From NCBI GenBank assembly GCA_030425425.1, contig JAUIAO010000012.1, forward strand, positions 46,335 to 110,334: a stretch of DNA of 64,000 nucleotides, read 5' to 3'. This DNA is from Bacteroidia bacterium (GTDB taxonomy: Bacteria; Bacteroidota; Bacteroidia; Cytophagales; Cyclobacteriaceae). The notes below the pieces were generated by a model. It made no database searches. It was not told where the DNA came from and worked only from the letters and a program-made list of their open reading frames with translations. A program made the translations under genes and the position numbers. This document shows positions 45,285-63,373 of this stretch, piece after piece (position 1 is the first letter of the stretch; the number at the start of each line of letters is the position of its first letter).

Positions 45285-46760
45285 TCAACCGGGCAGCTCC
45301 ATATTTGAGCGGTTGCTTGGTTTTCGTATCTTGGTATATGAGCCTAGAGGGATAGAAATTTTCACTGAGGTTCCTTTACCTGGTACAGACTTTAATGTAA
45401 ATGTACCTTTCAGTGATTGGACCTTCGTCGCAATAGATTGAAGCCCAAAAGCTCTATTATCATTTTCCTCCGGATCATATTCAAATCCAACTCCATCATC
45501 CAAAATAATTGCTTTTACTTCTTGTGTGTTGAGGTTTATTTCTATTGATGCTTCTTGTGCTTCGCTATGCTTGATAATGTTGTTGATCATTTCCTGGATG
45601 ATTCTGAATATTAAGAGTTCCACATTTTCAGGCAAGCTATGATCTTCAAGATTGTCGTGATAATCAAATGATACGGGGCCTCCTGAGTTTTCATATCTCT
45701 TAATGATTTCTTGTATCGCACCGCCTATTCCCAGATTTTCTAAAGGAGGAGGGATTAGTTCGTGTGCAAGGCTTCTGGTTTGTTGGATGCTTTCCTGAAG
45801 AATACTAAGTCCATCCATATATCTTGTCATATGCTTATTATCTACCTGCTGAGGAGGATACTTTTGAAATGTTTGGACGTGTAGGTATGCAGCTAAAAGC
45901 GTTTGCTGCAGACCATCATGCAAGCTGGAAGCAATTCTCGCTCTTTCTCTGTTCTCTGCTTTGATGGAGATGTCCAGGAGATCTTCCTGTGCATTGTGTT
46001 CTGAGGTTATATCTTTTGAGAGGACTATTCTGATATTCGGGTTATCCTTATTCAGTATTTTGCTTGACACCTCGACTAAGATGATTTCTCCAGATTTTTT
46101 TTTGTGTCTAAATATCGCTTTGTGGGGAAGGGTGTCATTGTTTAGCTCTATGTAATCAATGATATGTTTATGGTCCTCTTCTGGTCTAATATCTAGAAGG
46201 CTGAGATTCATAAATTCCTCATAAGTATAACCATAGTGTTCACATGCAGCTTCATTTACATTTAAAAATTTCATATTCACTCTATCCATAACCCACATAG
46301 GCTGAGGACTAAACTGGAACAAATCTGAGTATCGTTTATTTGATTCTTTAATTTGCAACAATTGTTTATTACGCTCTATGCTATACAATATGCTTTTGTA
46401 GAGGATCATTGAGTTTAGAGAATCTTTGATTAGATAATCAGCAATTCCATAGCTCATAGACCTTACCGAAAAGCTTACATCTTGGTAGCCTGTTAATATA
46501 ATGATTGGTATGTCTACAATAATATTCGAAATATCCTTTACTAGAGCTTCCCCCCGCATATCAGGAAGAGTGAGGTCCAAAAGAATCACATCGAATCGTT
46601 CTTCACCCAATTTCTTTTTTGCTGCAGCGTAGTTATTCGCATTGGTTATGTTCGGGTTAGAGATTTCATCTTCAAGATATTCTGTTATGATTAGGGAATC
46701 TCCAGGATTGTCTTCCACTATCAGAATCTTATAATCGTTTCTGTCTTTGGCTAGAGTCAT
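45285..46760 (-). CDS. REC-PAS-HisKA_3 hybrid histidine kinase
   Basis: 491 residues, soluble. Receiver (Asp62 in VILLDLTLPDMRG), PAS at about 148-258, HisKA_3 with His281 in IASSLHDGLQQTLLA, ATPase at about 390-475 (EMINNIIKHSEA, LDDGVGFEY). Paralogue of the proteins at 36605 and 55657. Ten bases separate it from the stop of the 1892-residue kinase upstream, so the pair is co-transcribed and the large kinase may phosphorylate its receiver. The HisKA_3 type points to the NarL-type regulator at 53282 as output. Confidence 0.92.
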   Translation of the reverse strand: MTLAKDRNDYKILIVEDNPGDSLIITEYLEDEISNPNITNANNYAAAKKKLGEERFDVILLDLTLPDMRGEALVKDISNIIVDIPIIILTGYQDVSFSVRSMSYGIADYLIKDSLNSMILYKSILYSIERNKQLLQIKESNKRYSDLFQFSPQPMWVMDRVNMKFLNVNEAACEHYGYTYEEFMNLSLLDIRPEEDHKHIIDYIELNNDTLPHKAIFRHKKKSGEIILVEVSSKILNKDNPNIRIVLSKDITSEHNAQEDLLDISIKAENRERARIASSLHDGLQQTLLAAYLHVQTFQKYPPQQVDNKHMTRYMDGLSILQESIQQTRSLAHELIPPPLENLGIGGAIQEIIKRYENSGGPVSFDYHDNLEDHSLPENVELLIFRIIQEMINNIIKHSEAQEASIEINLNTQEVKAIILDDGVGFEYDPEENDNRAFGLQSIATKVQSLKGTFTLKSVPGKGTSVKISIPLGSYTKIRKPSNRSNMELPG

Positions 46761-46770
46761 ACGTTGCAGA

Positions 46771-49700
46771 TTATGTGGTTGGTTTTTTGATGGTGAATGT
46801 GAATGTCGTGCCTTTTCCCGGTGTGGATTCTACAGTAATATCTCCATGCAAATTTTGAATATGTTTCTTTACTACCGCCAGGCCAACTCCGGTTCCTGGC
46901 GTTTCTTGGGTGTTATGTATTCGCTGAAATATGATAAAGATTTTTTCGTAGTATTCTTTTTCAAACCCAACCCCATTATCACCAACCTCAAATTGCCAGT
47001 GGTGCTCCAGATCACTGTAAGTAACAGTTATTAGAGGAGGCACATTCGGCTTGTTATACTTGAGGGCATTGCTGATCAGGTTCTGAAATACTTGCCTGAC
47101 GGGAGATAGGTAAGATGTAATGGTAGGTAATCCCTCAAATTGAATACAAGCATTTTTTTCTTCGATAATCTTTTGATGGAGACTCACTACTTCTTCAACT
47201 ACAGAGTTTATATTAATATCTTCAAGTTCCTGTTCCATTCGTCCCACTCTGGAATAATCTAATAAATCCATAATGATCCGTTTCATTCTGTTTGCCCCAT
47301 CTACGGCATAGTAAATGTATTGCTTGGCTTTTTCATCTAGTGCCTCGGAATATTTCGATTCTAATCTACCCATGAAGCTACTGATCATTCTCAGGGGCTC
47401 TTGCAGGTCATGGGATGCCACGTAGGCAAATTGTTCCAACTCTTTATTCGATAATTCTAATTCCTGAGCTTGTTTCTCTAGATTTTGATTCAATGATTTG
47501 AGTGAAGTTTCATACTTCTGTTCTTCGCTGACATCTTGCATCAGGGCGAGGTAATTCATGACAGTGCCATCCGCATTCAGGATTGGGGAGATGGTCATCA
47601 TTGTCCACAAGTCTGAGTCATCTTTTCTGAGGTTATGTACTTTTCCTTGCCATATCTCGCCTTTAGTGATGGTCTCCCACATTTTTTCATAAATTCCTTC
47701 GGGGTTTTTACCCGAATCGAGAAAGCTTATTTTTTTACCAAGTATCTCTTTCTGATCATACCCCGTGATCTTGGTGAAAGCTGGGCTGGAGTAGCTAATA
47801 TAACCATCTATATTGCTTACCGCCATGGCGGTAGGACTCTGCTCTATTGCCAGAGAGAGTTGCATATTTTCCTGTTCGATTCGCTTGCGATCTGTGATAT
47901 CTATCAATGATATAGACCAAAAATTTTCACCTAAAGCCGTGTCGATCATCTTCAGATTGACTAATGCCGGGAAGGTGCTGCCGTCTTTGCGAGTGCGGAG
48001 TATTTCATGATTGGTAAGTTGTCCCGTTTCGTTGATAATGTTTTCCAGATCTTTGTAAGTTTCGTCGTGTTCTGTCTGCGTATCAAACAGGCTTTGACCA
48101 ATTACTTCTGAAATACTGAACCCATGAAGCCGGGCAAATGATTCATTACAATACTGTATGCTACCATTACTTACAATTGCGGTTCCGTAGTTGGCTTGGT
48201 CTGAGATTTCTCTGAATTTCTGAATTTCAGACTCAGCTTCAACAATGTCGGTTTTGTCTCTTATCAGGGCAAATAATGAGTCTTTACCCCGAAATTTGGT
48301 TTTGTTCAGCGTAATGACCGAAATGAACTGTGTGCCGTCTTTTTTGACACATACCCAATCAAATGTAGCATTCCCATTTAGATTCGCAGAGTTGATGTGC
48401 TCTATATACGCTTGTCTACTTAAATTGATGTCTAGTTGAGTGCCGGAAGATAGTAGTGCAGGAGATTCATTGATTATTTCATCTCGCTCATATCCAAAAA
48501 GTTCGAGTGCTGTATTGTTTGATTCGATAATTTTCATATCCTCAATCATCATCAGCGCATATGGTGATTCCTGAAACAAGAATCTGTACTTCTCCTGGTC
48601 TTCTTTTAGTTGTTCTTCGGCCAGTTTTTGGTTTGTGATATCTGATATGGTAAAAAGAGCCGCATAGATTTCATTATTATTATCGATCAGTGGCAGTCCG
48701 GTTGAGAGAAACCACATAGGCTTATCGAGCAAGACTACTTTCGATTCTCTACTTACAGGTTTTTTGTTTCGGACGATCTCCTGCAGATCTGACATAAACT
48801 CCCTTGTCTCCTGCTCTGTAAAATGATCACCATAATGGGTGCCAATCAGTAAATCAGGTAAAAGGCCAATAGAGCGCGCTCCTTTTCCATTTACAAAGCG
48901 AAACTTTCCTTGTAGGTCCGTCATCATAATAATGCTGTCAGAGTTCTCAACCAGAATTCTGTATTTCTCTTCGCTGATTTTCAGGTTTTCTTCAAATTTT
49001 TTCGAATTTGTGATATCCCTGAAAAATATGGAATAGCCGTCTTTAGATATCTGAATATTGACATCAATGTATTTATCAATTCTCGGCAGGTAAGTGTTGG
49101 AGGATATGATTTTTTGTTCTTTTCTAGAATTGACCTGATTGAGGAGTTGAGTTGCTGATTGATCGTTTAAGATCTCTAGTATATTATGTCCAATTAGTTT
49201 TGATTGATCAATATTCAGGATGTTTAATGCACTAGGGTTGACTTTCAGAATAGTGAAATCACTATCTGTGAATAGAAAACCATCAAAAATATTGCTGAGG
49301 ATTTCATCTTTTTCTTGCAGGGTACGTCGAAGAGTTTGTTCTCTATCCATTTTTTCGATGGATGTGTACAGTCTGTCTCCTACATTTCTGATAAAATATT
49401 CATCATCATAGGACCATGCATAATTCATGGTACAATTGTCACAGCCAATGAATCCTACAAACTTCGTTTCTGCGAAGATTGGTATGATCATGACAGATCT
49501 AATGTCTTGACTTGCTAACAGTTCTTTAGTAAAACCTTCAGGTAGCTCATCAGTAATAGCTTTGAAGGGGAGGTTTTGCAGAAGCGAGGCTGAGATGTAT
49601 TCAATAGAATCGTAAGGTATATTTTGTAGTTCAGAGTTATTTATTTGTGATGATGTATGGTCTTTCAACCATTCATATCTTTGGCTGCAGAGCAGGTCGC

Positions 49701-52449
49701 CGGTTTCTTGCTCTATGTGATTTTCGAAATAATATACCCGGTCTGCGTTTACCCGATTTCCTGAAAACTCCAAACATATGTTGATAGCTTCATTCATGTC
49801 TGTTGCTTGCAAAAGCACATTGGAGAGGTATGTGAGCGTACCGATAAATTCTTTTTGTTTTTTTAGTTCATTTTCTGCGGTTTTAATATCGGTGATGTCT
49901 TGGGCCGAACCGTACAATTTCACACATTCTCCTTTTTCCAGATCCGCCTGAATGGTAATTCGACAATACCGGGTGCGATCCTGAAAACTCGTAAATGAAA
50001 AGTCAAACTTTTTTACCTCACCCGTTTGCATTGAGGTGTTTATTTTGGATAGTAAGATAGCGCGATCTCCATTTTCAATGAGTGACAGTATTTTTGCTGG
50101 TGAAATCTTTGTCTGGTTAGTTTCCAGCAAGCCATATACTGTGTCGTCTAAAATGAGGGATTGGTCAGATTGGCCAATATTGCAAAGTTCCCAAACACCA
50201 AACTGAGAAATTCTCTGTGCACTCTCTGCAATTATCTTAGCTTGATATTCTGAAGATATGTCCAGTACAATGCAGTTCCATACGGTGCTTCCATCACTGC
50301 TTCTGTTGGGCTGTCCATGTATTTCATGCCAGGCAATGTGGCCTTCTGGATGGACATAGCGAAATTTTACATTTACGGGAGTCAGTGAAGTGGCTGATTC
50401 TTCTATGGCTGATTTTAACATTTCATAGTCACCGCCTTTTTTTGCTCCTTCCCAGATCAAATCAGGATTGACCAGAGCTTCTTCTGCGGTGTATCCCCAG
50501 ATTTCTTCTGCCTTATTGCTAATCAATGAAAGATCTTCTTCTCCGCTGACACCTTTTCTGTACTGATACATTACACCGGGCACATTATCAGCTAAATTCT
50601 GCAGGCGGACTTCAATATTCTTCTTATCTGTGATGTCCTGAAAGCTTCCATTTATGCGTAATCTGTCATTGGAGGTCGTTTCTGACTGTGCGATTAAACG
50701 CACCCACTTTTCCTCACCTTTCAAAGAAATAATGGGGTATTCAATGTCGATGTTATTCACTTTTTGTGAAAGTGATTCAAACTTTTGTTCTAAGACTTTT
50801 CTCCACTCCGGCAGTACAGTTTTCATTACCTTGTTCCAGGTGATTTCTAAATGATTCTGAAATCCATAAATGTCCATGGCGATTTGTGACCAGGTACGTT
50901 TTTCTTCCAGAGGATATTCTTCGAATACTCCTAGTTTAGAAATTTTGGAAAGGCTCTTCAAACCCTCTTCTAATGCATTGTTGGAGGTGTTATCGCGGAT
51001 TACCCCAATCATAGTAGAGGGGATACCATAGTTAGTTCTCTCTACCAGACCAATATCTTCTACTGAGATCCAGTCTCCATTTAGTTTTTTAATCCTGTAT
51101 TCACATTTCCAGGTGAGTTGCTGTGGGTCCTTCAGGAAGTTAGTCAGGCTTTTTAGTATTATCTCTTTTTCTGCAGGATGTAATTTACTCTCCCATTCAT
51201 TTCGCGAGAGATTATTGTAACCAAGGGTTTTAGTAATCCCTGTACCCCAGATTATGTCATCACTGATACAGTTCCATTCATAGATAGCATCTTTAGTGAC
51301 TTCATTGATCCTCTCATATTTTTCCTGTGTTTTTTTGAGCTTTTTGCGGGTAATATTAAGTTCTGTTACGTCCAGACCGATGCATTGTATTTCACTTGGT
51401 TTTTGGTTTTCATCCAGCAGGCAGATGAAGTCCCATGCTGTTTCCACGATCTCTCCCCTTGCATTCGGTTTATCTAATTCTATTTTGTACACATTTTCAG
51501 GATCTCTCAAGCATTTTGATACCACACTCTCTAGCTTGGACCAATGGTAATTCATAATAAAATTAGTAGCCGGGTGCCCAATCACATCATCCTCTTCTCT
51601 GGAGAAGTCACTCAGAAATTTTTTGTTTGCATAAGTGTATTTGCCTTCCAGATCTACTCTGATCAAATAGTTGGTTAGGGAATCGTTAAGTGCTCTTAGC
51701 CTTTCTTCACTTATCCTTACTTGCTGTTCTTTCTTTTCATTTTCGGTGATGTCTTTGTAGGTGGTGAGCATGCAGGCTTGTCCTTCATACTGTAGCCTGA
51801 TGCCGGTTACATCCATGCGCATGGTCTCATTCTGCTTGTTAATGAATGTGCAAACACCAAATGACATCACTTCAGTGCTTTCGCTTAGTTCGGCATGTTT
51901 TTCTTTTAGAGTGGCAATCTCTTCTTTTGGTCTCAGAGCAGCCATATTCATTTGATTGAGCTCCTCTTCTGAATAACCAAATATGTCAGTGGCTTGTTGG
52001 CTAACTGAGCAGATATCGAACGTATTCAGGTTGTAGATGATGTTGGGTAGCGGACTATTATTGAAAAGTGATCGATCAATATGATCTTTCTCAGAAGATG
52101 GGTCTTCATAGGTTGCTCCGATCAGATCATAATCTTCTGTGAGATGGCTCCAGTGACAAGTCCAGTAGATATCAGAGGATAGGTTAGCCGACTGCATTAG
52201 CATTTCTGACAGATTGTTTTCTTTTGCCTGCTTCAGGAGATTCCTGATCATACGTGAAAGTTTTGCAGGAAAAAGATCTAGAAATATTTTGCCAATGATA
52301 GGTTCCTCTTTGTTCATCAATAAACCAGTGTCACCAACACTCCTGATCACTTCACCTTCTCTGTTGAGTGTGATCAGTACTTCATTCAGAAGTTTACCTT
52401 TCCTTATTAGTGATTCTTTTGAAGTGTCCTTGATATGTACTGGATTCAT
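46771..52449 (-). CDS. giant soluble multi-PAS/GAF histidine kinase (12 PAS or so)
   Basis: 1892 residues with no membrane span. By eye there are about seven PAS domains (1-875), one GAF (about 880-1060, with SVMIIPIFAETKFVGFIGCD), five further PAS (1065-1680), a HisKA domain with His near 1678 in YVASHDLQEPLRMI, and an ATPase domain (about 1790-1892, GTGVGLAVVKKHIQNLHG). Several PAS units are of the PAS_3/bacterial type (KISKLGVFEEYP, LADNVPGVMYQYRKG). The 1891-residue protein at 57107 has the same domain series, so the two arose by duplication. Signal unknown; many PAS units suggest integration of several cytoplasmic cues. Confidence 0.9.
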   Translation of the reverse strand: MNPVHIKDTSKESLIRKGKLLNEVLITLNREGEVIRSVGDTGLLMNKEEPIIGKIFLDLFPAKLSRMIRNLLKQAKENNLSEMLMQSANLSSDIYWTCHWSHLTEDYDLIGATYEDPSSEKDHIDRSLFNNSPLPNIIYNLNTFDICSVSQQATDIFGYSEEELNQMNMAALRPKEEIATLKEKHAELSESTEVMSFGVCTFINKQNETMRMDVTGIRLQYEGQACMLTTYKDITENEKKEQQVRISEERLRALNDSLTNYLIRVDLEGKYTYANKKFLSDFSREEDDVIGHPATNFIMNYHWSKLESVVSKCLRDPENVYKIELDKPNARGEIVETAWDFICLLDENQKPSEIQCIGLDVTELNITRKKLKKTQEKYERINEVTKDAIYEWNCISDDIIWGTGITKTLGYNNLSRNEWESKLHPAEKEIILKSLTNFLKDPQQLTWKCEYRIKKLNGDWISVEDIGLVERTNYGIPSTMIGVIRDNTSNNALEEGLKSLSKISKLGVFEEYPLEEKRTWSQIAMDIYGFQNHLEITWNKVMKTVLPEWRKVLEQKFESLSQKVNNIDIEYPIISLKGEEKWVRLIAQSETTSNDRLRINGSFQDITDKKNIEVRLQNLADNVPGVMYQYRKGVSGEEDLSLISNKAEEIWGYTAEEALVNPDLIWEGAKKGGDYEMLKSAIEESATSLTPVNVKFRYVHPEGHIAWHEIHGQPNRSSDGSTVWNCIVLDISSEYQAKIIAESAQRISQFGVWELCNIGQSDQSLILDDTVYGLLETNQTKISPAKILSLIENGDRAILLSKINTSMQTGEVKKFDFSFTSFQDRTRYCRITIQADLEKGECVKLYGSAQDITDIKTAENELKKQKEFIGTLTYLSNVLLQATDMNEAINICLEFSGNRVNADRVYYFENHIEQETGDLLCSQRYEWLKDHTSSQINNSELQNIPYDSIEYISASLLQNLPFKAITDELPEGFTKELLASQDIRSVMIIPIFAETKFVGFIGCDNCTMNYAWSYDDEYFIRNVGDRLYTSIEKMDREQTLRRTLQEKDEILSNIFDGFLFTDSDFTILKVNPSALNILNIDQSKLIGHNILEILNDQSATQLLNQVNSRKEQKIISSNTYLPRIDKYIDVNIQISKDGYSIFFRDITNSKKFEENLKISEEKYRILVENSDSIIMMTDLQGKFRFVNGKGARSIGLLPDLLIGTHYGDHFTEQETREFMSDLQEIVRNKKPVSRESKVVLLDKPMWFLSTGLPLIDNNNEIYAALFTISDITNQKLAEEQLKEDQEKYRFLFQESPYALMMIEDMKIIESNNTALELFGYERDEIINESPALLSSGTQLDINLSRQAYIEHINSANLNGNATFDWVCVKKDGTQFISVITLNKTKFRGKDSLFALIRDKTDIVEAESEIQKFREISDQANYGTAIVSNGSIQYCNESFARLHGFSISEVIGQSLFDTQTEHDETYKDLENIINETGQLTNHEILRTRKDGSTFPALVNLKMIDTALGENFWSISLIDITDRKRIEQENMQLSLAIEQSPTAMAVSNIDGYISYSSPAFTKITGYDQKEILGKKISFLDSGKNPEGIYEKMWETITKGEIWQGKVHNLRKDDSDLWTMMTISPILNADGTVMNYLALMQDVSEEQKYETSLKSLNQNLEKQAQELELSNKELEQFAYVASHDLQEPLRMISSFMGRLESKYSEALDEKAKQYIYYAVDGANRMKRIIMDLLDYSRVGRMEQELEDININSVVEEVVSLHQKIIEEKNACIQFEGLPTITSYLSPVRQVFQNLISNALKYNKPNVPPLITVTYSDLEHHWQFEVGDNGVGFEKEYYEKIFIIFQRIHNTQETPGTGVGLAVVKKHIQNLHGDITVESTPGKGTTFTFTIKKPTT

Positions 52450-52561
52450 TTGCTAGTTGTTTGTGTGCCGCCACTCTGATTATTACTTTGAGTGTAAATC
52501 TGAATACGTTCGCTTTAGTTATTCAATGTGGCTAAATTATCTGAACATTTTTTATTCTCCA

Positions 52562-52602
52562 TTGGCAAATTACCTATTTTATAAAATTCATAAATATTCT
52601 GA
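52562..52602. promoter_or_regulatory. paired palindrome sites before the giant kinase gene
   Basis: TTGGC AAATT ACCTA at 52562-52576 and the weaker TCATA AATAT TCTGA at 52588-52602, start to start 26 bp. They lie 113-153 bp upstream of the kinase start at 52449, on the kinase side of the receiver gene. Confidence 0.45.
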
Positions 52603-53129: not shown

Positions 53130-53191
53130 GGGGTCTATTACCTATTTCATTTGGTTAGGTGATTGTACTAATGGGTTAGGTGTTTTACTGA
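53130..53191. promoter_or_regulatory. three palindrome sites before the NarL-type regulator
   Basis: GGGGT CTATT ACCTA (53130), TAGGT GATTG TACTA (53156) and TAGGT GTTTT ACTGA (53177): steps of 26 and 21 bp. The nearest centre is about 98 bp from the ATG, leaving room for a promoter and a short leader, so autoregulation is likely. The opposite-strand receiver gene starts at 53031 and may share the sites. Confidence 0.6.
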
Positions 53192-53281: not shown

Positions 53282-53929
53282 ATGAACAGCATATTAATTG
53301 TTGATGATCACAAGTTAATCAGAGATGGTCTAAGGTTATATTTTGAGGATTCAGAGTTGGTGGCTGTAGCAGATGAAGCTTCCAATGGTAAGCAAGCTCT
53401 TGAGATCATGAAGGATAATCACTATGATCTCGTGCTGACAGACGTAAGAATGCCTGTGATGGATGGTGTAGAACTTACCCGCAACATTAGGACCTTATAC
53501 CCCGAACAACCAATCCTCACGCTTACTATGGCTGGAGAATCCCGATTGATCAAGCAGCTTATGCAATTAGGGGTAAATGGTTATTTGCTGAAAGATTCTG
53601 GAAATGAGGAGGTCATCAAAGCAGTTCAGATGGTGTTGGAGGGCGAAACGTATGTGTCTGACGAAGTAACGAAGATTTTAATCGAAGAGCTTTCTCCTAA
53701 AAAAATAAAGACAAAACAGAGGCTGACTGTCGAAACTCCACTATCTGATCGAGAAAAGGAGGTGCTGAAGCTGATCGTTGCAGAGATGACCAATGCTGAG
53801 ATTGCTCAAAAATTATTCATTAGTGTGCGTACGGTCGATGCGCATAAAAGAAATCTACTTGAAAAAACAGGGGCAAAAAACGTAGCTGGTCTGGTACTTT
53901 TTGCCGTTGAAAAGGGATTGACCGATTGA
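53282..53929 (+). CDS. NarL/LuxR-type DNA-binding response regulator
   Basis: 215 residues. Receiver at 1-120 with Asp54 in VLTDVRMPVMDG and Lys in GYLLKDSG; LuxR-type helix-turn-helix at about 150-212 (LSDREKEVLKLIVAEMT, NAEIAQKLFISVRTVDAHKR). It is the only DNA-binding regulator in the kinase region and is of the class normally served by HisKA_3 kinases, of which three are encoded nearby. The gene has no visible terminator and runs directly into a 1.7-kb array of candidate small RNAs, each preceded by paired palindromes also found in front of this gene. Binding to those palindromes is inference. Confidence 0.93.
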   Translation: MNSILIVDDHKLIRDGLRLYFEDSELVAVADEASNGKQALEIMKDNHYDLVLTDVRMPVMDGVELTRNIRTLYPEQPILTLTMAGESRLIKQLMQLGVNGYLLKDSGNEEVIKAVQMVLEGETYVSDEVTKILIEELSPKKIKTKQRLTVETPLSDREKEVLKLIVAEMTNAEIAQKLFISVRTVDAHKRNLLEKTGAKNVAGLVLFAVEKGLTD

Positions 53930-53960
53930 TGGTGATCTGGAAACAATCAACGACACTATT

Positions 53961-54001
53961 TAGGTAAAATACCTATTTTATTTTAATAGGCTAATTGCTC
54001 T
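53961..54001. promoter_or_regulatory. paired palindrome sites, module A
   Basis: TAGGT AAAAT ACCTA (53961-53975, perfect palindrome) and TAGGC TAATT GCTCT (53987-54001), 26 bp apart. Confidence 0.65.
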
Positions 54002-54035
54002 ATGAAAACAAGGAATCAAGATCAATATTTGCGAT

Positions 54036-54145
54036 TCCCAACTAAGTACAGCTAGTAATTTTACTAACATCTTCCTACGGGAAGATTGAAGAGGTTATGT
54101 AGAAAAGGAGGAATGTTCATGCTGATCATTCCTCTATTTTTATTT
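54036..54145 (+). ncRNA. candidate small RNA A
   Basis: Start approximate: AATATTTG at 54024-54031 resembles the TAnnTTTG element, 34 bp after the centre of the nearer palindrome. A 7-bp hairpin closed by a UACG tetraloop (54069-54075 with 54080-54086) is followed by the terminator stem 54108-54115 with 54127-54134 and TATTTTTATTT. The tetraloop of the UNCG class is a strong sign of selected RNA structure. The terminator loop resembles that of RNA F. Confidence 0.65.
54108..54145 (+). terminator. terminator of module A
   Basis: 8-bp stem GAGGAATG/CATTCCTC, 11-base loop containing a possible TCA/TGA inner pair, T-rich tail. Confidence 0.75.
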
Positions 54146-54203
54146 GGTAATCAAAAACTACAAGATCCTCATCAAGCGACACAGAACAAATCGACTGATG
54201 ATC

Positions 54204-54244
54204 TAGGCAAAATGCCGATAAGCCTCAAATAGGTGCTTTGCCGT
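54204..54244. promoter_or_regulatory. paired palindrome sites, module B
   Basis: TAGGC AAAAT GCCGA (54204-54218) and TAGGT GCTTT GCCGT (54230-54244), 26 bp apart. Confidence 0.6.
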
Positions 54245-54275
54245 TTCTTCTGGTTGTTCTTTTGTGTTTGTATGC

Positions 54276-54384
54276 CATACCATATACCTTATATAAATGA
54301 ATTAGGTTTGCTCATTTGTGATAGAAGAATGAGTAATCTTAATCATACCTGTAGAAAGTGTCCTTACTGGGCACTTTCTTTTTT
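54276..54384 (+). ncRNA. candidate small RNA B
   Basis: Start approximate, after TGTGTTTG at 54263-54270 (one mismatch to TAnnTTTG), about 30 bp from the nearer site centre. Internal hairpin CTCATT with AATGAG (54311-54316 with 54328-54333). Ends at an 11-bp terminator stem with six Ts. Confidence 0.6.
54353..54384 (+). terminator. terminator of module B
   Basis: Stem 54353-54363 with 54369-54379 (one G-T pair), 5-base loop, T-run to 54384. No gene upstream on this strand. Confidence 0.85.
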
Positions 54385-54451
54385 GTAAAAAACCCAGAAT
54401 CCCGACAAGATATTGATAGTAGAACAAGTGAATCATCTATTTGATTTAAAA

Positions 54452-54466
54452 TAGGTTAAAGGTCCT
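54452..54466. promoter_or_regulatory. degenerate palindrome site, module C
   Basis: TAGGT TAAAG GTCCT; the right half is poor and no convincing partner lies 26 bp away. A 6-bp hairpin (54546-54551 with 54568-54573) follows about 80 bp later, without a T-run. Module C may be decayed or not real. Confidence 0.3.
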
Positions 54467-54600
54467 TACTCCACTGTTTCAGGTTTTTCAATATCGAATA
54501 ATACAAAGGAGAATTTTATTACTTGAATTATGATAAATGTTTTAGATCTCACCTTAGAATGCTGGGATGAGATACATTATTGATAGTTCGCTGTATGTTT

Positions 54601-54641
54601 TGGGTATAAAGCCCATTTACGAATAATAGGTTATTTGCCGT
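54601..54641. promoter_or_regulatory. paired palindrome sites, module D
   Basis: TGGGT ATAAA GCCCA (54601-54615) and TAGGT TATTT GCCGT (54627-54641), 26 bp apart. Confidence 0.6.
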
Positions 54642-54674
54642 TTTTATTTAGTTCAATATTGAAGAACTTCATTC

Positions 54675-54779
54675 TATTATAAGACAGCCAATATATAGAT
54701 TAAGAATCAGGAGTATTGAAAACCATCGAACAATCTCAAGCTACTTTAAGGGATGACACAGTGCATCCCTTAATTTTTT
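54675..54779 (+). ncRNA. candidate small RNA D
   Basis: Start approximate from the spacing seen in the other modules; I see no good TAnnTTTG here. A short GATT/AATC fold lies near 54700, and the RNA would end at a 10-bp terminator stem (54746-54755 with 54764-54773) with six Ts. Confidence 0.55.
54746..54779 (+). terminator. terminator of module D
   Basis: Perfect 10-bp stem TTAAGGGATG/CATCCCTTAA, 8-base loop, T-run 54774-54779. Confidence 0.87.
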
Positions 54780-54870
54780 GGTCCAATGCTAAGTCACATT
54801 TTTTTTAATCCTCTTTAATATTCCAGTTGTGTACTTTTCGATTATTGGGTCGGTGGTAGCGTTCAAGAAT

Positions 54871-54911
54871 TAGGTGTGTTACCTATTTGATAAAAATACG
54901 ATTATTACCGT
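54871..54911. promoter_or_regulatory. paired palindrome sites, module E
   Basis: TAGGT GTGTT ACCTA (54871-54885, perfect halves) and TACGA TTATT ACCGT (54897-54911), 26 bp apart. Confidence 0.6.
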
Positions 54912-54934
54912 TTCTCTCAGATATGTATTCACAT

Positions 54935-54942
54935 AACTTTGA
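54935..54942 (+). promoter_or_regulatory. Bacteroidota -7 element of module E
   Basis: TAACTTTG is a perfect TAnnTTTG. It begins 31 bp after the centre of the nearer palindrome, which puts that palindrome at roughly -42, a standard activator position. Confidence 0.6.
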
Positions 54943-54948
54943 GTTGTT

Positions 54949-55065
54949 AAGCACTTAATACAATACTCTTCTGGAGTAACTAAAGTAACCACGAGGCCTG
55001 GATTATTGGTAAGCTAAAAAGGCCTCAATATCTGAGAGGGGTTAGCTGGTACCCCTCTCTTTTTT
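54949..55065 (+). ncRNA. candidate small RNA E
   Basis: Start taken about 7 bp after the perfect TAnnTTTG at 54935. Internal hairpin GAGGCCT with AGGCCTC (54993-54999 with 55020-55026) and a 9-bp terminator stem with a T-run. No reading frame. Confidence 0.65.
55034..55065 (+). terminator. terminator of module E
   Basis: Stem 55034-55042 with 55051-55059 (GAGAGGGGT/ACCCCTCTC), 8-base loop, six Ts. Confidence 0.87.
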
Positions 55066-55138
55066 CCCTCAGAAACCCGGCAGTTCTTTTCTTAAAATAT
55101 GGTGAATATCAGACTAGCGAGTGTCTTTAGTTTGCATT

Positions 55139-55179
55139 TAGGTTTTTTTCTAAATTTCAAATTATAGGTTTTTTACCTA
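55139..55179. promoter_or_regulatory. paired palindrome sites, module F
   Basis: TAGGT TTTTT TCTAA (55139-55153) and TAGGT TTTTT ACCTA (55165-55179), 26 bp apart. Confidence 0.65.
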
Positions 55180-55211
55180 TGAAAAACCACCGTGTATTGC
55201 CCATATTTACC

Positions 55212-55317
55212 CTACTAAACCTAAACTGTTATTGAGGCATCAGTAGATTGAGTAGATGACTAATGTCTCATTATATTTCGATGGGGTGTTCATGCAGGTC
55301 ACCCCATCATTTTTTTT
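55212..55317 (+). ncRNA. candidate small RNA F
   Basis: Start approximate; CATATTTA at 55201-55208 stands where the -7 element is expected. Internal 8-bp hairpin (55233-55240 with 55263-55270, one G-T pair), then a 9-bp terminator stem with eight Ts. The terminator loop matches that of RNA A at most positions. Confidence 0.62.
55280..55317 (+). terminator. terminator of module F
   Basis: Stem 55280-55288 with 55300-55308 (GATGGGGTG/CACCCCATC), 11-base loop, T-run 55310-55317. Confidence 0.88.
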
Positions 55318-55392
55318 ATTAGCAAGGTTTTGATTGTAGTGTCTATTCATGTTGATAATCTGGGTACAGATACAGTTCTGTCTAAACCAGTC

Positions 55393-55656: not shown

Positions 55657-57093
55657 TTATTGATTCTTCAGCTGAAGGGGAGGCTCCAGGTGCTCTACGG
55701 TACTGGCTATCGGTATCTGAACACTGACTGTAGTTCCCTGACCTTTATCAGAGACAATATTAAAGTTTCCTTTTAGAGATTTTACTCTTGACATAATAGA
55801 CTTCAAACCAAAAGATGTTTTCATTATTGCGCTTTTATCCGTGTCCATTCCCTTACCATTGTCAGTTACTTTCAGGTATACAACGTCTTGATCGGTTTTT
55901 AGGATGACTGATGCACAGGTGGCTTCACTATGCTTTACGATGTTGGTGATCAATTCCTGGGAGATTCTGAAGAGCACTAGTTCTATGTTTTCTGGAAGAC
56001 GTCCAGACTCCAGATTATCCTGGTAATCAAAGTCGATTTCATCTATATATCTCTGTATTACCTCAGCGATAGCTGCAGAAATACCTAGTTCAGAAAGTGC
56101 CGTTGGCATCATCTGATGAGCCATATTACGGGTCTCTCTGATTCCTTCTTTGAGGATTTTCATTACTTCTTTGTATCTCTGGCTGTATAATTCAGAAAGA
56201 TTTTTTTCTGCTTCCTTTTCTATGGTTTCTAATCTCATGAAAGCCGACAGTAAAGTTTGCTGAAGACCATCGTGAAGGCTTGAGGAAATTCTACTTCTTT
56301 CCTCATCTTCTACCTGCAGGGTGATATTGATTAACTCTTCCTGTAAATGCCGCTCACGTGTTATGTCTTTGGCGAGTATCATATTTACCTGCTGGTCTTC
56401 CAATATGACTTGGCTGAAATCTAACTCTACCAATATTATTTCACCCGTTTTTTTGCGGTGTTTGCAGATTGGTTTTGCTTCATTTTGGAGCAAGCAGTGG
56501 TAATCATATTTGCCAACAAATAAATCAGAAAACGAAATTTTTAGAAATTCTTCTCTGGAGTATCCATAGTGCATACAAGCAGATTGGTTGACATCTAAAA
56601 TCTGAGATGACTCCTCTTGATATATCCACATGGGTAGGGGACTAAAATGGAATAGATCCGCATATCGTTTTTCAGACTCTTTGATTTGACGCAGATATTT
56701 ATTTCTCTGTATGCCATATATGATGGCCTTATAAAGTAATGCAGGATTGAATCCGTCCTTTAGTAAATAATCTGTAACCCCTGTTTTGAGTGATCGCACG
56801 GCAAAGGACATGTCTTCATACCCTGTGAGGATAATCACAGGTGTACTAGGAGCAATGTCTAAAGTGAGCTGAACTAATTCTGCACCACTTTTATCTGGAA
56901 GCGAAAGGTCCAATAAGATGGCATCATACTCCTGCTCACCCAGCAATCTTTTGCATTCTTTGAATGTATTGGCATGGTTGAGTTGCGGTTTCCTGATCTC
57001 TTCAAGTAACGCGTACTGTATGGTTCTGTAGTCTGCAGGATTGTCTTCTACTATGAGTATTTTGTATGGATGTCGGTCTTTAATCAATGACAT
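55657..57093 (-). CDS. REC-PAS-HisKA_3 hybrid histidine kinase
   Basis: 478 residues, soluble. Receiver (Asp62 in AILLDLSLPDKSG), PAS at about 145-250, HisKA_3 with His274 in ISSSLHDGLQQTLL, ATPase at about 375-462 (ELITNIVKHSEA, VTDNGKGMD). Third paralogue of this architecture. It follows the 1891-residue kinase gene after 13 bp. It faces the small-RNA array, its stop lying some 340 bp beyond module F. Confidence 0.92.
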   Translation of the reverse strand: MSLIKDRHPYKILIVEDNPADYRTIQYALLEEIRKPQLNHANTFKECKRLLGEQEYDAILLDLSLPDKSGAELVQLTLDIAPSTPVIILTGYEDMSFAVRSLKTGVTDYLLKDGFNPALLYKAIIYGIQRNKYLRQIKESEKRYADLFHFSPLPMWIYQEESSQILDVNQSACMHYGYSREEFLKISFSDLFVGKYDYHCLLQNEAKPICKHRKKTGEIILVELDFSQVILEDQQVNMILAKDITRERHLQEELINITLQVEDEERSRISSSLHDGLQQTLLSAFMRLETIEKEAEKNLSELYSQRYKEVMKILKEGIRETRNMAHQMMPTALSELGISAAIAEVIQRYIDEIDFDYQDNLESGRLPENIELVLFRISQELITNIVKHSEATCASVILKTDQDVVYLKVTDNGKGMDTDKSAIMKTSFGLKSIMSRVKSLKGNFNIVSDKGQGTTVSVQIPIASTVEHLEPPLQLKNQ

Positions 57094-57106
57094 TCTAGCT
57101 GGAAAT

Positions 57107-60100
57107 TTATTTGTGATTTCTGATTTTTCTGATGGTGAATATGAAGGAGCTGCCTTTTCCCTTTTCAGATTTTACTTTGATCGTGCCGCCGAGGTGCTCG
57201 ATCTGCTTTTTTACAATAGCCAGTCCCATACCAGTACCGCTGACTGTTTGTGTTTCTTCCAGTCTCTGGAATACTTCAAAAATCTTATCATGATAGTTTG
57301 GGTCTATGCCTTTGCCATTATCTGCTACAGTAAACCTCCATTGATCTTTAAGCTCTTTGTGTGTGATGGAAATAACCGGTGGTTCGTCCGTCTTGCTGTA
57401 TTTTAGTGCATTGCTTACCAGGTTATTCATGATCTGCATCAATGGCACATAGTAACTATATAAGTTGTCAGGGAGGTTTTTGTACTGAATTTTGGCTCCT
57501 TTTTCTGCGATAAAATTCTTTTGAAAAGCAATAACTTCCTCTAGTATTTCATTCATATCCAGTATTTCGAGCTCTTGGTTGATCCTGCCCACTCTGGAAA
57601 ATTCCAACAAGTCCTTGATGATTTTTCGCATACGGGCTGCACCCTCCACAGCGAAGTTGATGAAAGTGTTACCTTTTTCATCCAGAGAGTCTTTATACTT
57701 ACGTTCTAACAGTGAGAGATACGTGGAGATCGTGCCTAGAGGTTCTTGCAAGTCATGTGATGCTACGTACGCAAATTGTTCCAGCTCACTATTGGAGTAT
57801 CTCAGTTTTTCGTTGACCTGACTTAGAGTGATTTCATAGTTTTTGGAGTCTGTGATGTCATTCATCAATATCAGGTAATTGGTACGTATACCCAGGTCAT
57901 TAAAGATGGGCGTTATACTCAGTTTTACCCATATTTCTGCTCCACCTTTTTTATGATTAATCACTTCTCCCTGCCAGGATTCACCCGAACTGATTGTATT
58001 CCAGATTGTTTGGTAGTTCGGGTCATTTCTCATATCCTCTTTCAGCATGGTGATGTTTTGCCCAATCGATTCATCGGTAGTGTAGCCGGTGATACTGGTG
58101 AAGCTAGGGCTCACATACTCTATGGTGGTATTGAGGTCTGTGAGGATCATTGCCGTAGGGCTCTGAGCAATGGCCAGATTGAGTTGTTTGTTTTCTTGCT
58201 CTATGCGTTTATTTTCTGTGAGATCTATTACCGAAAGCGCCCAAATTTCTTCACCGTGGTTGGTGGTGATTGCTTTTAAATTGACCAGCACGGGAAACGA
58301 AGACCCGTCTTTTCTCAACCGGATGATCTCAGTATTTTTTAATTCCCCGGTCGTCTTAATTTTTTCCAGGATTTTCTGAGTCACTGTTTTGCCCATAGCT
58401 TCCTGATCATCCAGGGCTAATAAATTCGAACCTATCAGTTCATCTTTACTGAATTGATGCATTTTTGCAAAAGCATCATTGCAGTAACGGATCACACCTT
58501 TACTTACCAGAATAGTGCCGTAGTTGGCTTGCTCGGCCATCTGCTTAAACTGCATCATTTGGTTTTCTGCTTCCAGGGTATCAGTGCGGTCCTGCAGCAT
58601 CGCAAAAATTACCTCACGGTCACCTAGAGTGCTCTTAGTCAGGTTCACTTGAGCCACAAATAGTGATCCGTTTTTCCGCTGGTGCAACCAATCAAACTCC
58701 ATGGAATCATTTTCCTTCATGTGCTTGTTGATTTTTTCACTGAGACTTGAACTCTTTGTGCCGTCTAGTTGCACAGGGGGTGATATGAATGTGGGCGATT
58801 GGTTGATCAATTCTTCTTTTCGGTACTCAAATAAACTCAGAGCAGTATCATTGATTTCTTTAATCTTATCTCCCTCTAGTAGCATGAGTGCATAAGGTGA
58901 TGCCTCGAATAAGTAGCGGTATCGCTCCTCACTTTCAGCTATTTGTATTTGTGCTTCTTTCTGTGGAGTAATATCATTGGCAGATACCATCACAGAAGCT
59001 ACTACGTTGTGATCCTTGAATACCGGCTGGAAACTCCCTCTTACCCACAATTGCCGCTGACCAAGTGTAAGCTGCTGCTCTATGCTCTTGCCATCTGCAT
59101 TTTCAAATACTTCCAGAACATATCCTAATATTTGCTTGGCCTCCGCAGGGTTCAATACATCACTTATACTCAGGTCTGATCTATCGGTAATTTTTAGAGC
59201 GTCCAGATATTTGTTGGCCACATCGTTTGTATATTCAAATCTGCCTGCTTTGTCAAACATCATAATGGCCGAATTAGAACTTTCTATCAATGCCCGATAT
59301 TTTTCCTCACTTTTGATGATGGCTATTTCGGCGACTTTTCGGGCAGTAATATCCCTGAAGAATACTGAGGTCCCCTGAGCATAGTTGTACACATCTATTT
59401 CCAGATATTTATCTAACGCCTCGTGGTAATACTCAAAAGATAGCCTGTCTGGTGTTGTTACTCCGGCTGGCTTCATGGATTCGAAAACCTCCCAAATGTC
59501 ATGATCTACCACTTTCCACAGGTGATTGCCTATGGCATACTCTGCGTCTATGGTGGATATTTCTGTAGCCCTGGGATTCCAGGAGGTGATCATATCATCT
59601 GTATCCAGCGCAAAAAAACCGTCTTTGATACTATCGAGGATTGTTTCTTTTTCGTTGAGCGTTTCGTTGAGCTCTTTACTGCTATTGTACCGAACTAAAG
59701 CATTTGTCAGCGTATCCGCTATACTGTTTAGAAAATCTTCCTCATCTTGTGTCCATTCCCGGGAGAGCGTACAGTCGTCAAAACCTATGAATCCCACAAA
59801 ATTTGACCCGATGAAGATGGGTATGATCAGAATGGAGAGAATGTCCTGACTCGCCAGAATTTCCTTGGTAGGGCCATCTTCCAGATCTTTGATGATAGCC
59901 TTGAAGGGTAAGTTTTTGTGCAGACTCATGAGTGTTTCACCTAGGGCTTCATAAGGCACATTCTGAAGCTCAGGATTGTTTATCTGTGGTGTTACACTGT
60001 TTTTGGCCCATTCGTAGCGCTGGCTGCATAGTAATCCTCCAGTGGTCTGGTCTATGCTGTTTTCGAAGTAATAGGTCCTGTCACTGTCCACTGTTTGGCC

Positions 60101-62782
60101 AGCTATACTCAAGCATTTGTCTATACTGGTGGAGATTTCCTCTACCTCGAGCAAGTTGTTGTTGATAGTGGCCAGCGCCTTCAGAAACCTGGTTTTTTGT
60201 TCTAAGTGCTGAAAACTCTCCACTCGCTCAGTGATATCCTGAAAAGATCCCGATACTCTCACACATTGACCGTCCAGAAATTCACTCTTTGCGATGGTTC
60301 TGATCCATTTAGTATTGCCAGATGAGGTGCGAATTCTGAATTCGACCGAATGTCTGGATTCTTTTGTTAATAGCTTTTCGCTCCAGTCCTGCACCATCGT
60401 CAGATCTCTCCGGTCTACCATTCTATACAGTTCCTTCTCACTCAGGCTTTCCTTACTATCTGTTTCCAATAGGGCTTTGGATATGTGATCCTGAAAGATC
60501 GATTGTATCTCACCGTCATTTATTTTGGCCTCCCATGAGCCTATCTTGGCTATGTCTGTCACATTTTGGGCGATGTTCCACGCTTTGAATTCGCCAGACA
60601 CATCCATACATAGTGTATTCCATAGCGTGCTGCCATCAGCAAGTGTACGTGGCACACCTCTGTAGTGGTGCCAGTGTTTTTGTCCGTCGGTAGTAATGTG
60701 AGGGATTACTAATTCAAAATTTCTGAGGCTTTCTGCAGATTTCATGACGGCTTCTTGAGCCTCTTGCAGGTGTCCACCACGCCTGATGCCCTCCCATACC
60801 AGATTTGTATCCTTCATCACTTCGTCTGCTGTATGCCCCCATATATCTAAAGCCTTGGGTGACACATAGTTGAGCTCATCGTGACCATCGGGAAATAGCC
60901 GGTATTGGAAGATCACCCCTGGCAGATTATTTGTGATACTTTTTAGCGCTATCTCAGAGTTTTTTCTCGCAGTGATATCCTGAAAACTACCAAACATACG
61001 AATCCGGTCATGACCGACGATTTCTGACTGCAAGGTGAGATAAAGCCATTTTTCTGTGCCATCAGGTGCAGAGATCAGCAGCTCTCCTTCTGCCTTGTCA
61101 GGTTTGATGGTGAGTTTTTGTAGTATTTCCTGTACCACCTCTTTTCTCTTACGTCCAACGAATCTCAGGAGCTTGTCTAGGCTGATTTCTTCATCTTCAG
61201 AGAATCCAAATATCTGACGCGCCAGAGGTGTCCACACATGCTTGTCTTCATCAGGGTAGTACTCAAATGCACCCAATTTTGAAATCTTCGATACGTCATC
61301 CAGCAGTCGTTCCAGCATGCGGGTCTCGGTGATATTTCTCAGTACCCCGACGATTCGCTCAGGCTCATTGAATGGATCTCTCTGCAAAAATCCAATCTCC
61401 TCCACATGGGCATAGGTTCCTTTAGCTGTGAGCAGGCGATAATGCTTGTGCCAGGGCTTGTCAGTGCCTTTTCTCAGAAATTCATCCAGACTTTCTTTGA
61501 TTTCGGCTCTATCTTCGGTGTGGATGGCATTGAGCCATTCGTCAAATGTCAGCTGGTCATATCCAAAATTCCGCTTGAGTCCCACTCCCCACTGTAGGTC
61601 ATTGGTCTTTGCATTCCATTCGTATATGGCATCTTTGGAGGCATCATTGAGTAGCTGGAATTTATCATTGCTTTGCTGCAATTCCTTACGGGTATGATAG
61701 ACGTCAGATATATCCATACCCATACATTGTACTTCCAATGGGTTGCCATAGCTGTCCGATACCCCCAATAGCTCCCAGTAGGTATATACCTTCTCACCTT
61801 TGTTGTTGGTTTTTTCCAGTTCTACCTTGTATATCTTACCCGGGTTGGCGAGGCATTGCCTCGAAACTTCATGCAACTTCAGTATATCTGCATCATTAGA
61901 TACGGAATGCGTGCCATATTGCCCTATCACAGTTTCTCCCTCTTGAGCAAAATTAGCTTGATAGCCATTATTAGCGTATGTGATCGATCCTTCTGCACTG
62001 ACCTTGACGAGGTAATTCGTCATAGAATTCAGGATGCTTTTGTATTCCTCGCCGATTTCCAGTTGTTCTCGGGTGGTGTTTTCTTCTTCGGTAATGTCCC
62101 GGTAGATGGTGACTACACAGGAGCAGTTGTCATATTTTACCTTGTGACCGGTGACATCCATCACCATTTCGTCTCCTGCAGAATTGATGAAATTGCATTT
62201 ACCAAACTTGATTACTCCGTCTATTTGCTCTATGCTGTTGTGCCTTTCCTTCAGGTAGGAGACCTCAGCTGGTGGCCTGATATCCGCCATGTTTTTCTTC
62301 AGAAAGTCCTCCCGGGAGATGCCGAAGACTTTTTCGGCCTGGTGATTCACTTCTTTCACCTCGAAGGTGTTGTGATCGTAAATGATTTTGGGCAAAGGAC
62401 TCTGCGTGAAAAACAAATTTAAAATTGCTTCTCTCTCATCAACTTCCATGATTCTATTACCCGTAAGGGTGTAGTTGCTGGAATCTTCGTCCCAGAAACA
62501 TTGCCATACGGTGCTATACTCATGATCTTTGAGTGCCAGATTTAGCTTGCTGCTTGCATACCCTGTCGCCCGGGCATTCTCCAGCAATTCTGCAAATTTT
62601 TGGGAAATATTATCTGGTATAAGTGACAATATGTTCTGCTGTAATGTCTCCTTTTTACTAATACCGATAATGTGATCCGGATCCCCCAAAACGTGGGATA
62701 CCAGATAGGTTTCTGTCAGTGTGAAGAGGATGGGGGCTGCTTGCGCTTGCAAGTTGTTTTCAGAGCTGTTGGTTGACGACAT
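57107..62782 (-). CDS. giant soluble multi-PAS/GAF histidine kinase
   Basis: 1891 residues, no membrane span. About seven PAS domains, one GAF (near 900-1075, with SILIIPIFIGSNFVGFIGFD), about five more PAS, HisKA with His near 1675 in YVASHDLQEPLGTI, and ATPase (VADNGKGID, GTGMGLAIVKKQIEHLGG). Length, order and many block sequences parallel the kinase at 46771 (for example VTKDAIYEWN there and ASKDAIYEWN here), so it is a paralogue from duplication of the whole kinase module. Two receivers precede it and a REC-PAS-HisKA_3 kinase follows. Confidence 0.9.
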   Translation of the reverse strand: MSSTNSSENNLQAQAAPILFTLTETYLVSHVLGDPDHIIGISKKETLQQNILSLIPDNISQKFAELLENARATGYASSKLNLALKDHEYSTVWQCFWDEDSSNYTLTGNRIMEVDEREAILNLFFTQSPLPKIIYDHNTFEVKEVNHQAEKVFGISREDFLKKNMADIRPPAEVSYLKERHNSIEQIDGVIKFGKCNFINSAGDEMVMDVTGHKVKYDNCSCVVTIYRDITEEENTTREQLEIGEEYKSILNSMTNYLVKVSAEGSITYANNGYQANFAQEGETVIGQYGTHSVSNDADILKLHEVSRQCLANPGKIYKVELEKTNNKGEKVYTYWELLGVSDSYGNPLEVQCMGMDISDVYHTRKELQQSNDKFQLLNDASKDAIYEWNAKTNDLQWGVGLKRNFGYDQLTFDEWLNAIHTEDRAEIKESLDEFLRKGTDKPWHKHYRLLTAKGTYAHVEEIGFLQRDPFNEPERIVGVLRNITETRMLERLLDDVSKISKLGAFEYYPDEDKHVWTPLARQIFGFSEDEEISLDKLLRFVGRKRKEVVQEILQKLTIKPDKAEGELLISAPDGTEKWLYLTLQSEIVGHDRIRMFGSFQDITARKNSEIALKSITNNLPGVIFQYRLFPDGHDELNYVSPKALDIWGHTADEVMKDTNLVWEGIRRGGHLQEAQEAVMKSAESLRNFELVIPHITTDGQKHWHHYRGVPRTLADGSTLWNTLCMDVSGEFKAWNIAQNVTDIAKIGSWEAKINDGEIQSIFQDHISKALLETDSKESLSEKELYRMVDRRDLTMVQDWSEKLLTKESRHSVEFRIRTSSGNTKWIRTIAKSEFLDGQCVRVSGSFQDITERVESFQHLEQKTRFLKALATINNNLLEVEEISTSIDKCLSIAGQTVDSDRTYYFENSIDQTTGGLLCSQRYEWAKNSVTPQINNPELQNVPYEALGETLMSLHKNLPFKAIIKDLEDGPTKEILASQDILSILIIPIFIGSNFVGFIGFDDCTLSREWTQDEEDFLNSIADTLTNALVRYNSSKELNETLNEKETILDSIKDGFFALDTDDMITSWNPRATEISTIDAEYAIGNHLWKVVDHDIWEVFESMKPAGVTTPDRLSFEYYHEALDKYLEIDVYNYAQGTSVFFRDITARKVAEIAIIKSEEKYRALIESSNSAIMMFDKAGRFEYTNDVANKYLDALKITDRSDLSISDVLNPAEAKQILGYVLEVFENADGKSIEQQLTLGQRQLWVRGSFQPVFKDHNVVASVMVSANDITPQKEAQIQIAESEERYRYLFEASPYALMLLEGDKIKEINDTALSLFEYRKEELINQSPTFISPPVQLDGTKSSSLSEKINKHMKENDSMEFDWLHQRKNGSLFVAQVNLTKSTLGDREVIFAMLQDRTDTLEAENQMMQFKQMAEQANYGTILVSKGVIRYCNDAFAKMHQFSKDELIGSNLLALDDQEAMGKTVTQKILEKIKTTGELKNTEIIRLRKDGSSFPVLVNLKAITTNHGEEIWALSVIDLTENKRIEQENKQLNLAIAQSPTAMILTDLNTTIEYVSPSFTSITGYTTDESIGQNITMLKEDMRNDPNYQTIWNTISSGESWQGEVINHKKGGAEIWVKLSITPIFNDLGIRTNYLILMNDITDSKNYEITLSQVNEKLRYSNSELEQFAYVASHDLQEPLGTISTYLSLLERKYKDSLDEKGNTFINFAVEGAARMRKIIKDLLEFSRVGRINQELEILDMNEILEEVIAFQKNFIAEKGAKIQYKNLPDNLYSYYVPLMQIMNNLVSNALKYSKTDEPPVISITHKELKDQWRFTVADNGKGIDPNYHDKIFEVFQRLEETQTVSGTGMGLAIVKKQIEHLGGTIKVKSEKGKGSSFIFTIRKIRNHK

Positions 62783-63346: not shown

Positions 63347-63373
63347 AAGAAAGTAGTGAGCTTGTTATATTCT

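Follow-up and report, generated by a model that had tools for sequence, protein, structure and literature searches.

The window analysed here, 64,000 nucleotides of contig JAUIAO010000012.1 from the 5.85 Mb draft genome of a Bacteroidia bacterium (Cyclobacteriaceae), contains a gap of 1.7 kb on the 3' side of a gene for a NarL/FixJ-type response regulator, in which five plus-strand modules (A, B, D, E and F) follow each other in tandem. Each module consists of two 15-bp sites and one strong terminator hairpin. The array most likely represents a regulator-controlled output of several small RNAs (sRNAs), as judged from the scarcity of such site pairs elsewhere in the genome, from the terminators, from a -7 box whose distance to the sites is constant in most of the units examined, and from a related sRNA family in Fulvivirga. 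More specifically, we consider it probable, with a good deal of room for error, that the five modules are sRNA genes co-activated by the phosphorylated regulator and that the predicted RNAs pair with different mRNAs.

A preliminary description of this DNA had already placed the five modules at these positions and proposed a multi-sRNA output of the adjacent NarL-type regulator in Bacteroidota; the positions are confirmed, the site starts lie 26 bp apart in all five modules, and the sequence supports the proposed output as likely. The description had also assigned a pair of 15-bp palindromes to each module. The pairs are indeed present, but a perfect match to TAGGT-N5-ACCTA is limited to A-1, E-1 and F-2, whereas several partners are weak, with A-2, E-2 and F-1 being weak palindromes. 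The regulator combines a receiver (REC) domain with a GerE/LuxR-type DNA-binding domain, as in the NarL/FixJ family. For Bacteroidota promoters a -7 box of the form TAnnTTTG has been reported (PMC7366714, PMC9723704). Site pairs were searched with a sequence-only model (R1), built from 12 training sequences of which six come from the window, and with a matrix of 12 sites from outside the window, which is not fully independent, most of these sites having been found by resemblance to those of the window. The features of the locus are as follows.

53130–53170, plus strand: paired site R, 5' of the regulator gene, site starts 53130 and 53156; R1 match with E 8.8e-4 (site R is within the training set).
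53282–53929, plus strand: NarL/FixJ-type response regulator gene, 215 amino acids, REC and GerE domains (Pfam PF00072 and PF00196).
53961–54001, plus strand: paired site of module A, site starts 53961 and 53987; R1, also recovered by the outside-window matrix.
54024–54031, plus strand: candidate -7 box of module A, AATATTTG, one change from TAnnTTTG, with TTTG 41 bp after the second-site start.
54036–54146, plus strand: predicted small RNA A, start inferred from the -7 box; internal UACG-loop hairpin, terminator 54107–54135.
54204–54244, plus strand: paired site of module B, site starts 54204 and 54230; R1, also recovered by the outside-window matrix.
54276–54385, plus strand: predicted small RNA B, with AATTAGGTTT and a hairpin inside and its terminator at 54353–54379; TTTG begins at 54267, a distance of 37 bp that departs from the common spacing.
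54426–54462, plus strand: degenerate sixth site pair, module C, 11.4 bits; on folding, no terminator 3' of module C.
54601–54641, plus strand: paired site of module D, site starts 54601 and 54627; R1, weak and on the opposite strand with the outside-window matrix.
54677–54780, plus strand: predicted small RNA D, start by geometry only, no recognisable -7 box; terminator 54746–54773.
54871–54911, plus strand: paired site of module E, site starts 54871 and 54897; R1, also recovered by the outside-window matrix.
54934–54941, plus strand: candidate -7 box of module E, TAACTTTG, full match to TAnnTTTG.
54947–55066, plus strand: predicted small RNA E, with a GAGGCC hairpin inside and its terminator at 55034–55059.
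55139–55179, plus strand: paired site of module F, site starts 55139 and 55165; R1, on the opposite strand with the outside-window matrix.
55202–55209, plus strand: near -7 box of module F, CATATTTA, two changes, from the sequence.
55215–55318, plus strand: predicted small RNA F, from folding; terminator hairpin 55280–55308.

Site R, module C and the -7 boxes were absent from the preliminary description. Module C looks decayed.

As an anatomical feature the array is real and far from chance. Its five terminators, strong as the preliminary description had maintained, all lie on the plus strand, with best energies of -13.5 to -17.7 kcal/mol, and none is found on the minus strand; they give 12 candidate terminator lines at five places, compared with a mean of 0.23 lines and a maximum of 2 in 60 dinucleotide shuffles. 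Among 190 intergenic gaps of at least 150 bp in 864 kb of the source genome, the richer strand holds no terminator in 163, one in 24, two in 2 and five in the gap of the array, so that none of the 189 other gaps exceeds two per strand. When the whole genome was searched with R1 (best 150 of 5146 first-look candidates scored), eight matches were obtained at E < 0.01, seven of which belong to the window locus (A, E, D, B, R, F and A again on the opposite strand) and one to a paralogous regulator on contig C119. With the outside-window matrix, 11 matches were found in the 864 kb: the C119 site, itself part of the matrix, ranks first, followed by E, A and B at ranks 2–4, while F and D appear at ranks 5 and 10, both on the opposite strand. 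With paired predicted sites in five of five modules, several sRNA genes would have one type of regulator site in common.

The sites stand at a regular distance from candidate promoters. In a set of 24 site pairs drawn from the source genome and other genomes, TTTG follows the second-site start by 37–46 bp in 19, of which 18 fall at 40–43 bp (mean 1.4 and maximum 6 in 1000 shuffles), a spacing that had been spotted by eye ahead of counting. The full TAnnTTTG box is present in 13 of the 24 (shuffles: mean 0.17, maximum 2). The count omits three of ten fetched loci, two inside reading frames (L195, L197) and one squeezed between frames (L193), as well as the weak own-genome sites C108 and C49 (inside reading frames), module C and the L020 site, which has one extra base; leaving out three weak own-genome sites, two at C24 and one at C105, gives 16 of 21. 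Within the window the box is complete in module E and one change away in module A. Since the second site lies just 5' of the -7 box, the position expected of an activator, the regulator would act from there.

The predicted RNAs are about 103–120 nt long, taking their starts from the -7 box geometry. Their bodies differ in sequence, as the preliminary description had noted, and apart from the T-run the k-mers they have in common do not exceed chance. No 7-mer is common to at least three bodies, the 6-mers that are being TTTTTT, ATTTTT and CTTAAT; nor is any GGA-containing 6- or 7-mer, in a count that did not cover single GGA triplets in loops. No Rfam family reaches its gathering score anywhere in the window, in line with the earlier remark that the sequences were unrecognised; between 53900 and 55400 there are three weak matches with E up to 1, all far below their gathering scores, and none is a Qrr. 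Could the modules encode short peptides rather than RNAs? Module A has AAAAGGAGG immediately 5' of an ATG opening 39 codons, and TGTTCATG and GTTCATGC are common to A and F. The frame of A, however, reads through its own terminator, E is devoid of an ATG, the sole ATG of D opens six codons, and Bacteroidetes mRNAs have been reported to lack Shine-Dalgarno sequences (PMC6847099), which makes a peptide-coding function highly improbable.

Similar site pairs occur within about 600 bp 3' of homologous regulators in Fulvivirga and one Saprospiraceae genome, and directly 3' of the C119 paralogue in the source genome itself. In Fulvivirga, one to three copies of an sRNA-like element, each composed of a core, TAGGTTTAGGTTGATTA, a hairpin and a terminator, lie 3' of the site pair. 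A covariance model of this element (R2) matches at E < 1e-11 in 7 of 295 sampled genomes of the family, all from a single genus (g57), in which there are copies identical to those of the named Fulvivirga genomes. An R1 site lies 5' of an sRNA copy at all seven loci, one of them weak (11.8 bits), and the regulator stands beside the copy at six, the seventh being on a cut contig. In the terminator stem, five pairs are changed on both sides, versus 0–1 in slid controls (14 matches, 13 distinct). R2 gave no match to the window up to E 1 and none to the source genome at E 0.05 (best 15 candidates scored); weak matches outside g57 (E 3e-5 to 0.05) were rejected as members, many of them being terminators with GGTTTAGG-like letters. 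Rfam returned nothing up to E 0.1 for four Fulvivirga loci. In Fulvivirga sediminis (L017, 7717–7840), a short frame, lipoprotein-like by eye, is located directly 5' of the second sRNA-like element, possibly as a peptide-plus-RNA transcript.

These data also bear on whether the paired sites could be a decoy that soaks up the phosphorylated regulator and sets a threshold, the RNAs being by-products. Conservation of the paired sites exceeds that of the RNA bodies, and 2.1 kb hold six of these pairs. Yet a decoy needs neither a promoter at fixed spacing nor a terminator, while a strong terminator is found in every module and the -7 box stands at 40–43 bp in 18 of the 24 pairs; in Fulvivirga, moreover, conservation extends to the RNA itself, with covariation in its terminator stem. 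A decoy role is accordingly regarded as decidedly unlikely.

The Fulvivirga core, GGUUUAGGUU, which contains GGTTTAGGTT, is complementary to AACCTAAACC. In four g57 genomes AACCTAAACC is 1.9- to 4.5-fold commoner than the reversed word (sRNA genes included); in the window's own genus it is the rarer of the two in all six genomes counted, for example 17 versus 55 in genome G000. When all 50 AACCTAAACC sites of G062, a genome of the genus of Fulvivirga, were classed, 17 were found before a start codon, 12 of these by 7–9 nt, and all 12 encoded proteins have N-termini resembling signal peptides or lipoprotein signals, judged by eye. The remaining sites comprise two regulator-linked sRNAs, five units that resemble sRNAs and have a sigma54-like box, a further five before T-runs, 13 in coding frames and eight unclassified. 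Among the first 30 sites listed for the four g57 genomes, seven precede a start codon, six by 7–9 nt; among 30 sites from the window's genus four do so, at 0, 4, 15 and 19 nt, and a comparable rule applied to random positions gives 3.5%. For one Fulvivirga genome, an initial sample of 400 kb yielded motif counts before start codons that were too low to be informative. Pairing just 5' of the start codons of exported-protein mRNAs is suggested by these positions as a concrete mechanism for the Fulvivirga sRNAs.

Two loci of G062 are described for their arrangement. In L337, three lipoprotein-like genes carry AACCTAAACC 8 nt before the ATG (sites 3779, 4904 and 5978). A second tandem array is found on the reverse strand of L336 (3525–4370), where four sRNA-like units with the GGTTTAGGTT core lie 231–271 bp apart, three of them with a sigma54-like box GGCA[CT]-N5-TTG immediately 5'; similar units are present in L339, L340, L347 and L381.

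The preliminary description had likened the array to two established systems. In Csr/Rsm systems of the GacA type, a NarL-type regulator controls several sRNAs through a palindromic upstream site, and these sRNAs, which carry repeated GGA motifs in their hairpin loops, work through CsrA/RsmA. The Qrr RNAs of Vibrio (LuxO, sigma54) are the multi-copy output of a response regulator and depend on Hfq. With the former the array has in common the regulator type, the palindromic sites and the number of sRNAs; with the latter, multi-copy sRNAs under a response regulator, and in Fulvivirga sigma54-like boxes occur in some relatives of the regulator-linked sRNA family. The candidate promoters of the window, in contrast, are of the TAnnTTTG type rather than the sigma54 type. 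Furthermore, neither the CsrA profile PF02599 nor the Hfq profile PF17209 was found in any of 29 genomes including the source genome, while 3 and 5 of 14 control genomes, respectively, were positive. GacA/Rsm titration and Hfq-dependent Qrr action are therefore poor models, and neither equivalence is upheld at the level of mechanism.

If not CsrA, another protein might be sequestered by the five RNAs, for instance one of the Bacteroidota Rbp kind, in which case common structure rather than sequence would matter. The bodies are unlike in sequence but alike in size and in their hairpin-plus-terminator form, a different protein could serve where Hfq and CsrA were not found, and RbpB has been described as a global RNA-binding protein in Bacteroides (PMC11697453). 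Titration of such a protein is nevertheless unlikely: with CsrA not found, the classical form drops out, the few common 6-mers listed above provide no loop motif, no 7-mer is common to three bodies or more, and what is conserved in Fulvivirga is a linear core, to which perfect complements are found before start codons.

For the sRNA output that we favour, the following circuit can be proposed. The phosphorylated regulator would bind the sites of the array together with site R in front of its own gene, through which it is likely autoregulated as far as the sequence indicates, creating a positive loop, and the five RNAs would be produced together. By analogy with the core-target complementarity in Fulvivirga, from which their base-pairing mode is deduced, they may pair near mRNA start codons in the absence of Hfq and CsrA, using seeds other than that of Fulvivirga, and may thereby shut off other genes, so that a single signal would have several effects.

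Several observations weigh against this interpretation. Conservation in relatives, a point raised in the preliminary description, is partial: paired sites do precede a covarying sRNA family in Fulvivirga, but of the 43 named homologue loci searched no more than 4 gave a site at E < 0.01, and 34 of 39 homologue loci have no strong terminator within 2 kb 3' of the regulator (four have one and Fulvivirga marina three, in a scan where some loci are truncated and the two terminators of L021 were missed). Even in its own genus the Fulvivirga sRNA family occurs in just 7 of the 15 sampled genomes, and the first hairpin of the element displays no compensatory change among the same 14 matches. Blastn of the RNA bodies against the 295 family genomes, the source genome included (best two candidates per genome scored), gave no convincing match, only short ones of about 20–50 bases; the best outside the source genome, 30 bases in G144, falls within an apparent protein-coding frame and was discarded. 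The window regulator and that of Fulvivirga are homologues without being strict orthologues, and the mechanism is carried over by analogy. As to the promoters, module D is without a recognisable -7 box, that of B is 4 bp off, that of F has two changes, and none was found for site R at the common spacing. Lastly, target searches with modules A, B, D, E and F, which covered 864 kb of the genome, returned no convincing set, whether antisense k-mers were compared with 604 start regions or the longest perfect antisense matches with 615; the average duplex energy with start regions was set aside as a criterion, since the Fulvivirga positive control failed as well.

Among the loci sampled the array is private to the source genome. 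In a tree of regulators (38 of 50 rows) the window regulator falls inside a group of regulators from its own genus and family and has no strict orthologue, the nearest regulator being 62% identical. On the 3' side of the nearest regulators of the genus, the DNA looks like protein genes, some of them accompanied by related sites (8 of 20 loci listed). Together with the decayed look of module C and the lack of an array at most homologue loci, this would fit remnants, that is, promoters of lost protein genes which each keep an old terminator. Five intact terminators and a uniform predicted length are, however, unlikely as leftovers, the gap being unique among the 190 examined, and an origin as remnants is considered very unlikely. 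A pattern scan of viral contigs matched five stretches.

The array most likely follows the plan of two known sRNA groups, one response regulator with several sRNAs, minus the near-copy feature. LhrC1-5 of Listeria, controlled by LisRK, are five sRNAs of 111–114 nt, four of them clustered (PMC12101431); csRNA1-5 of Streptococcus, controlled by CiaRH, are five highly similar sRNAs (PMC4507080, PMC3091779). The number of predicted RNAs and, probably, the dependence on one response regulator system recur in the array, as does the clustering of LhrC. In contrast, the members of LhrC are versions of a single RNA and have CU-rich motifs, whereas the bodies of the array share nothing beyond chance and its regulator gene is adjacent and likely self-regulated; the csRNAs, in turn, are near-copies, which the array RNAs are not, and belong to a different phylum. 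CiaR is an OmpR-type regulator, not a NarL-type one. Bacteroidota sRNAs comparable to those of the array are Rfp18 of Flavobacterium and GibS of Bacteroides, for which the portions of PMC9723704 and PMC7366714 at hand describe no regulator-linked tandem array; the same portions report Bacteroides to be without an obvious Hfq. No description of the array was among the matches listed in the literature on regulator-linked sRNAs of Bacteroidota, Fulvivirga or Cytophagales.

Two further loci of the source genome carry related sites. At the C119 paralogue (L003, 2646–2739), a terminator-ended element lies 3' of a small receiver-like frame; it is a weak R2 match (28.9 bits) and carries TTTTTCATATTAGGTTTAGGG, antisense to the start-region-like sequence CCCTAAACCTAATATGAAAAA. 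Predicted RNA F (55215–55224) and this element have a perfect complement of 10 bases, CTAAACCTAA; RNA F might be a sponge, or the complement arose by chance. On contig C24 (L172), related paired sites with CCTTTGTA boxes at 2544 and 3423 stand before two similar small proteins of 145 and 144 amino acids, possible targets of a paralogous regulator.

On both sides of the window regulator, two similar clusters (45285–52449 and 55657–62782) each place a receiver-PAS-HisKA_3 kinase beside a PAS-rich HisKA kinase of 1892 or 1891 amino acids, and look like duplicates of each other. Two weak sites accompany them.

52559–52588, strand not assigned: weak, partial site 5' of the minus-strand kinase gene 46771–52449, 14.1 bits, genome E 0.46, alone not significant; by its sequence a possible extra target of the regulator.
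63371–63415, minus strand: weak paired site 5' of the second kinase cluster, scoring 13.2 bits with a genome-wide E of 0.89; rank 8 of 11 with the outside-window matrix.

How sRNAs are controlled and find their targets in Bacteroidota without Hfq has been called an open question (PMC7366714). A broader proposal, which we put forward tentatively and expect to fail rather than to hold, is that Bacteroidota of this group possess a system which corresponds to the envelope sRNAs of enterobacteria but does without Hfq and CsrA: NarL-type regulators, joined by sigma54 for further Fulvivirga copies, would drive tandem sRNAs whose single-stranded cores pair 7–9 nt before the start codon and shut down exported-protein mRNAs, the window being the most diversified form, with five seeds and with birth and death of modules. 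If the sRNA interpretation is true, the window would hold a whole circuit in one place, namely regulator, regulator site and five RNA outputs, to which Fulvivirga would add an sRNA core and a list of candidate targets, and one regulator would retain its promoters while the RNAs driven from them turn over fast.

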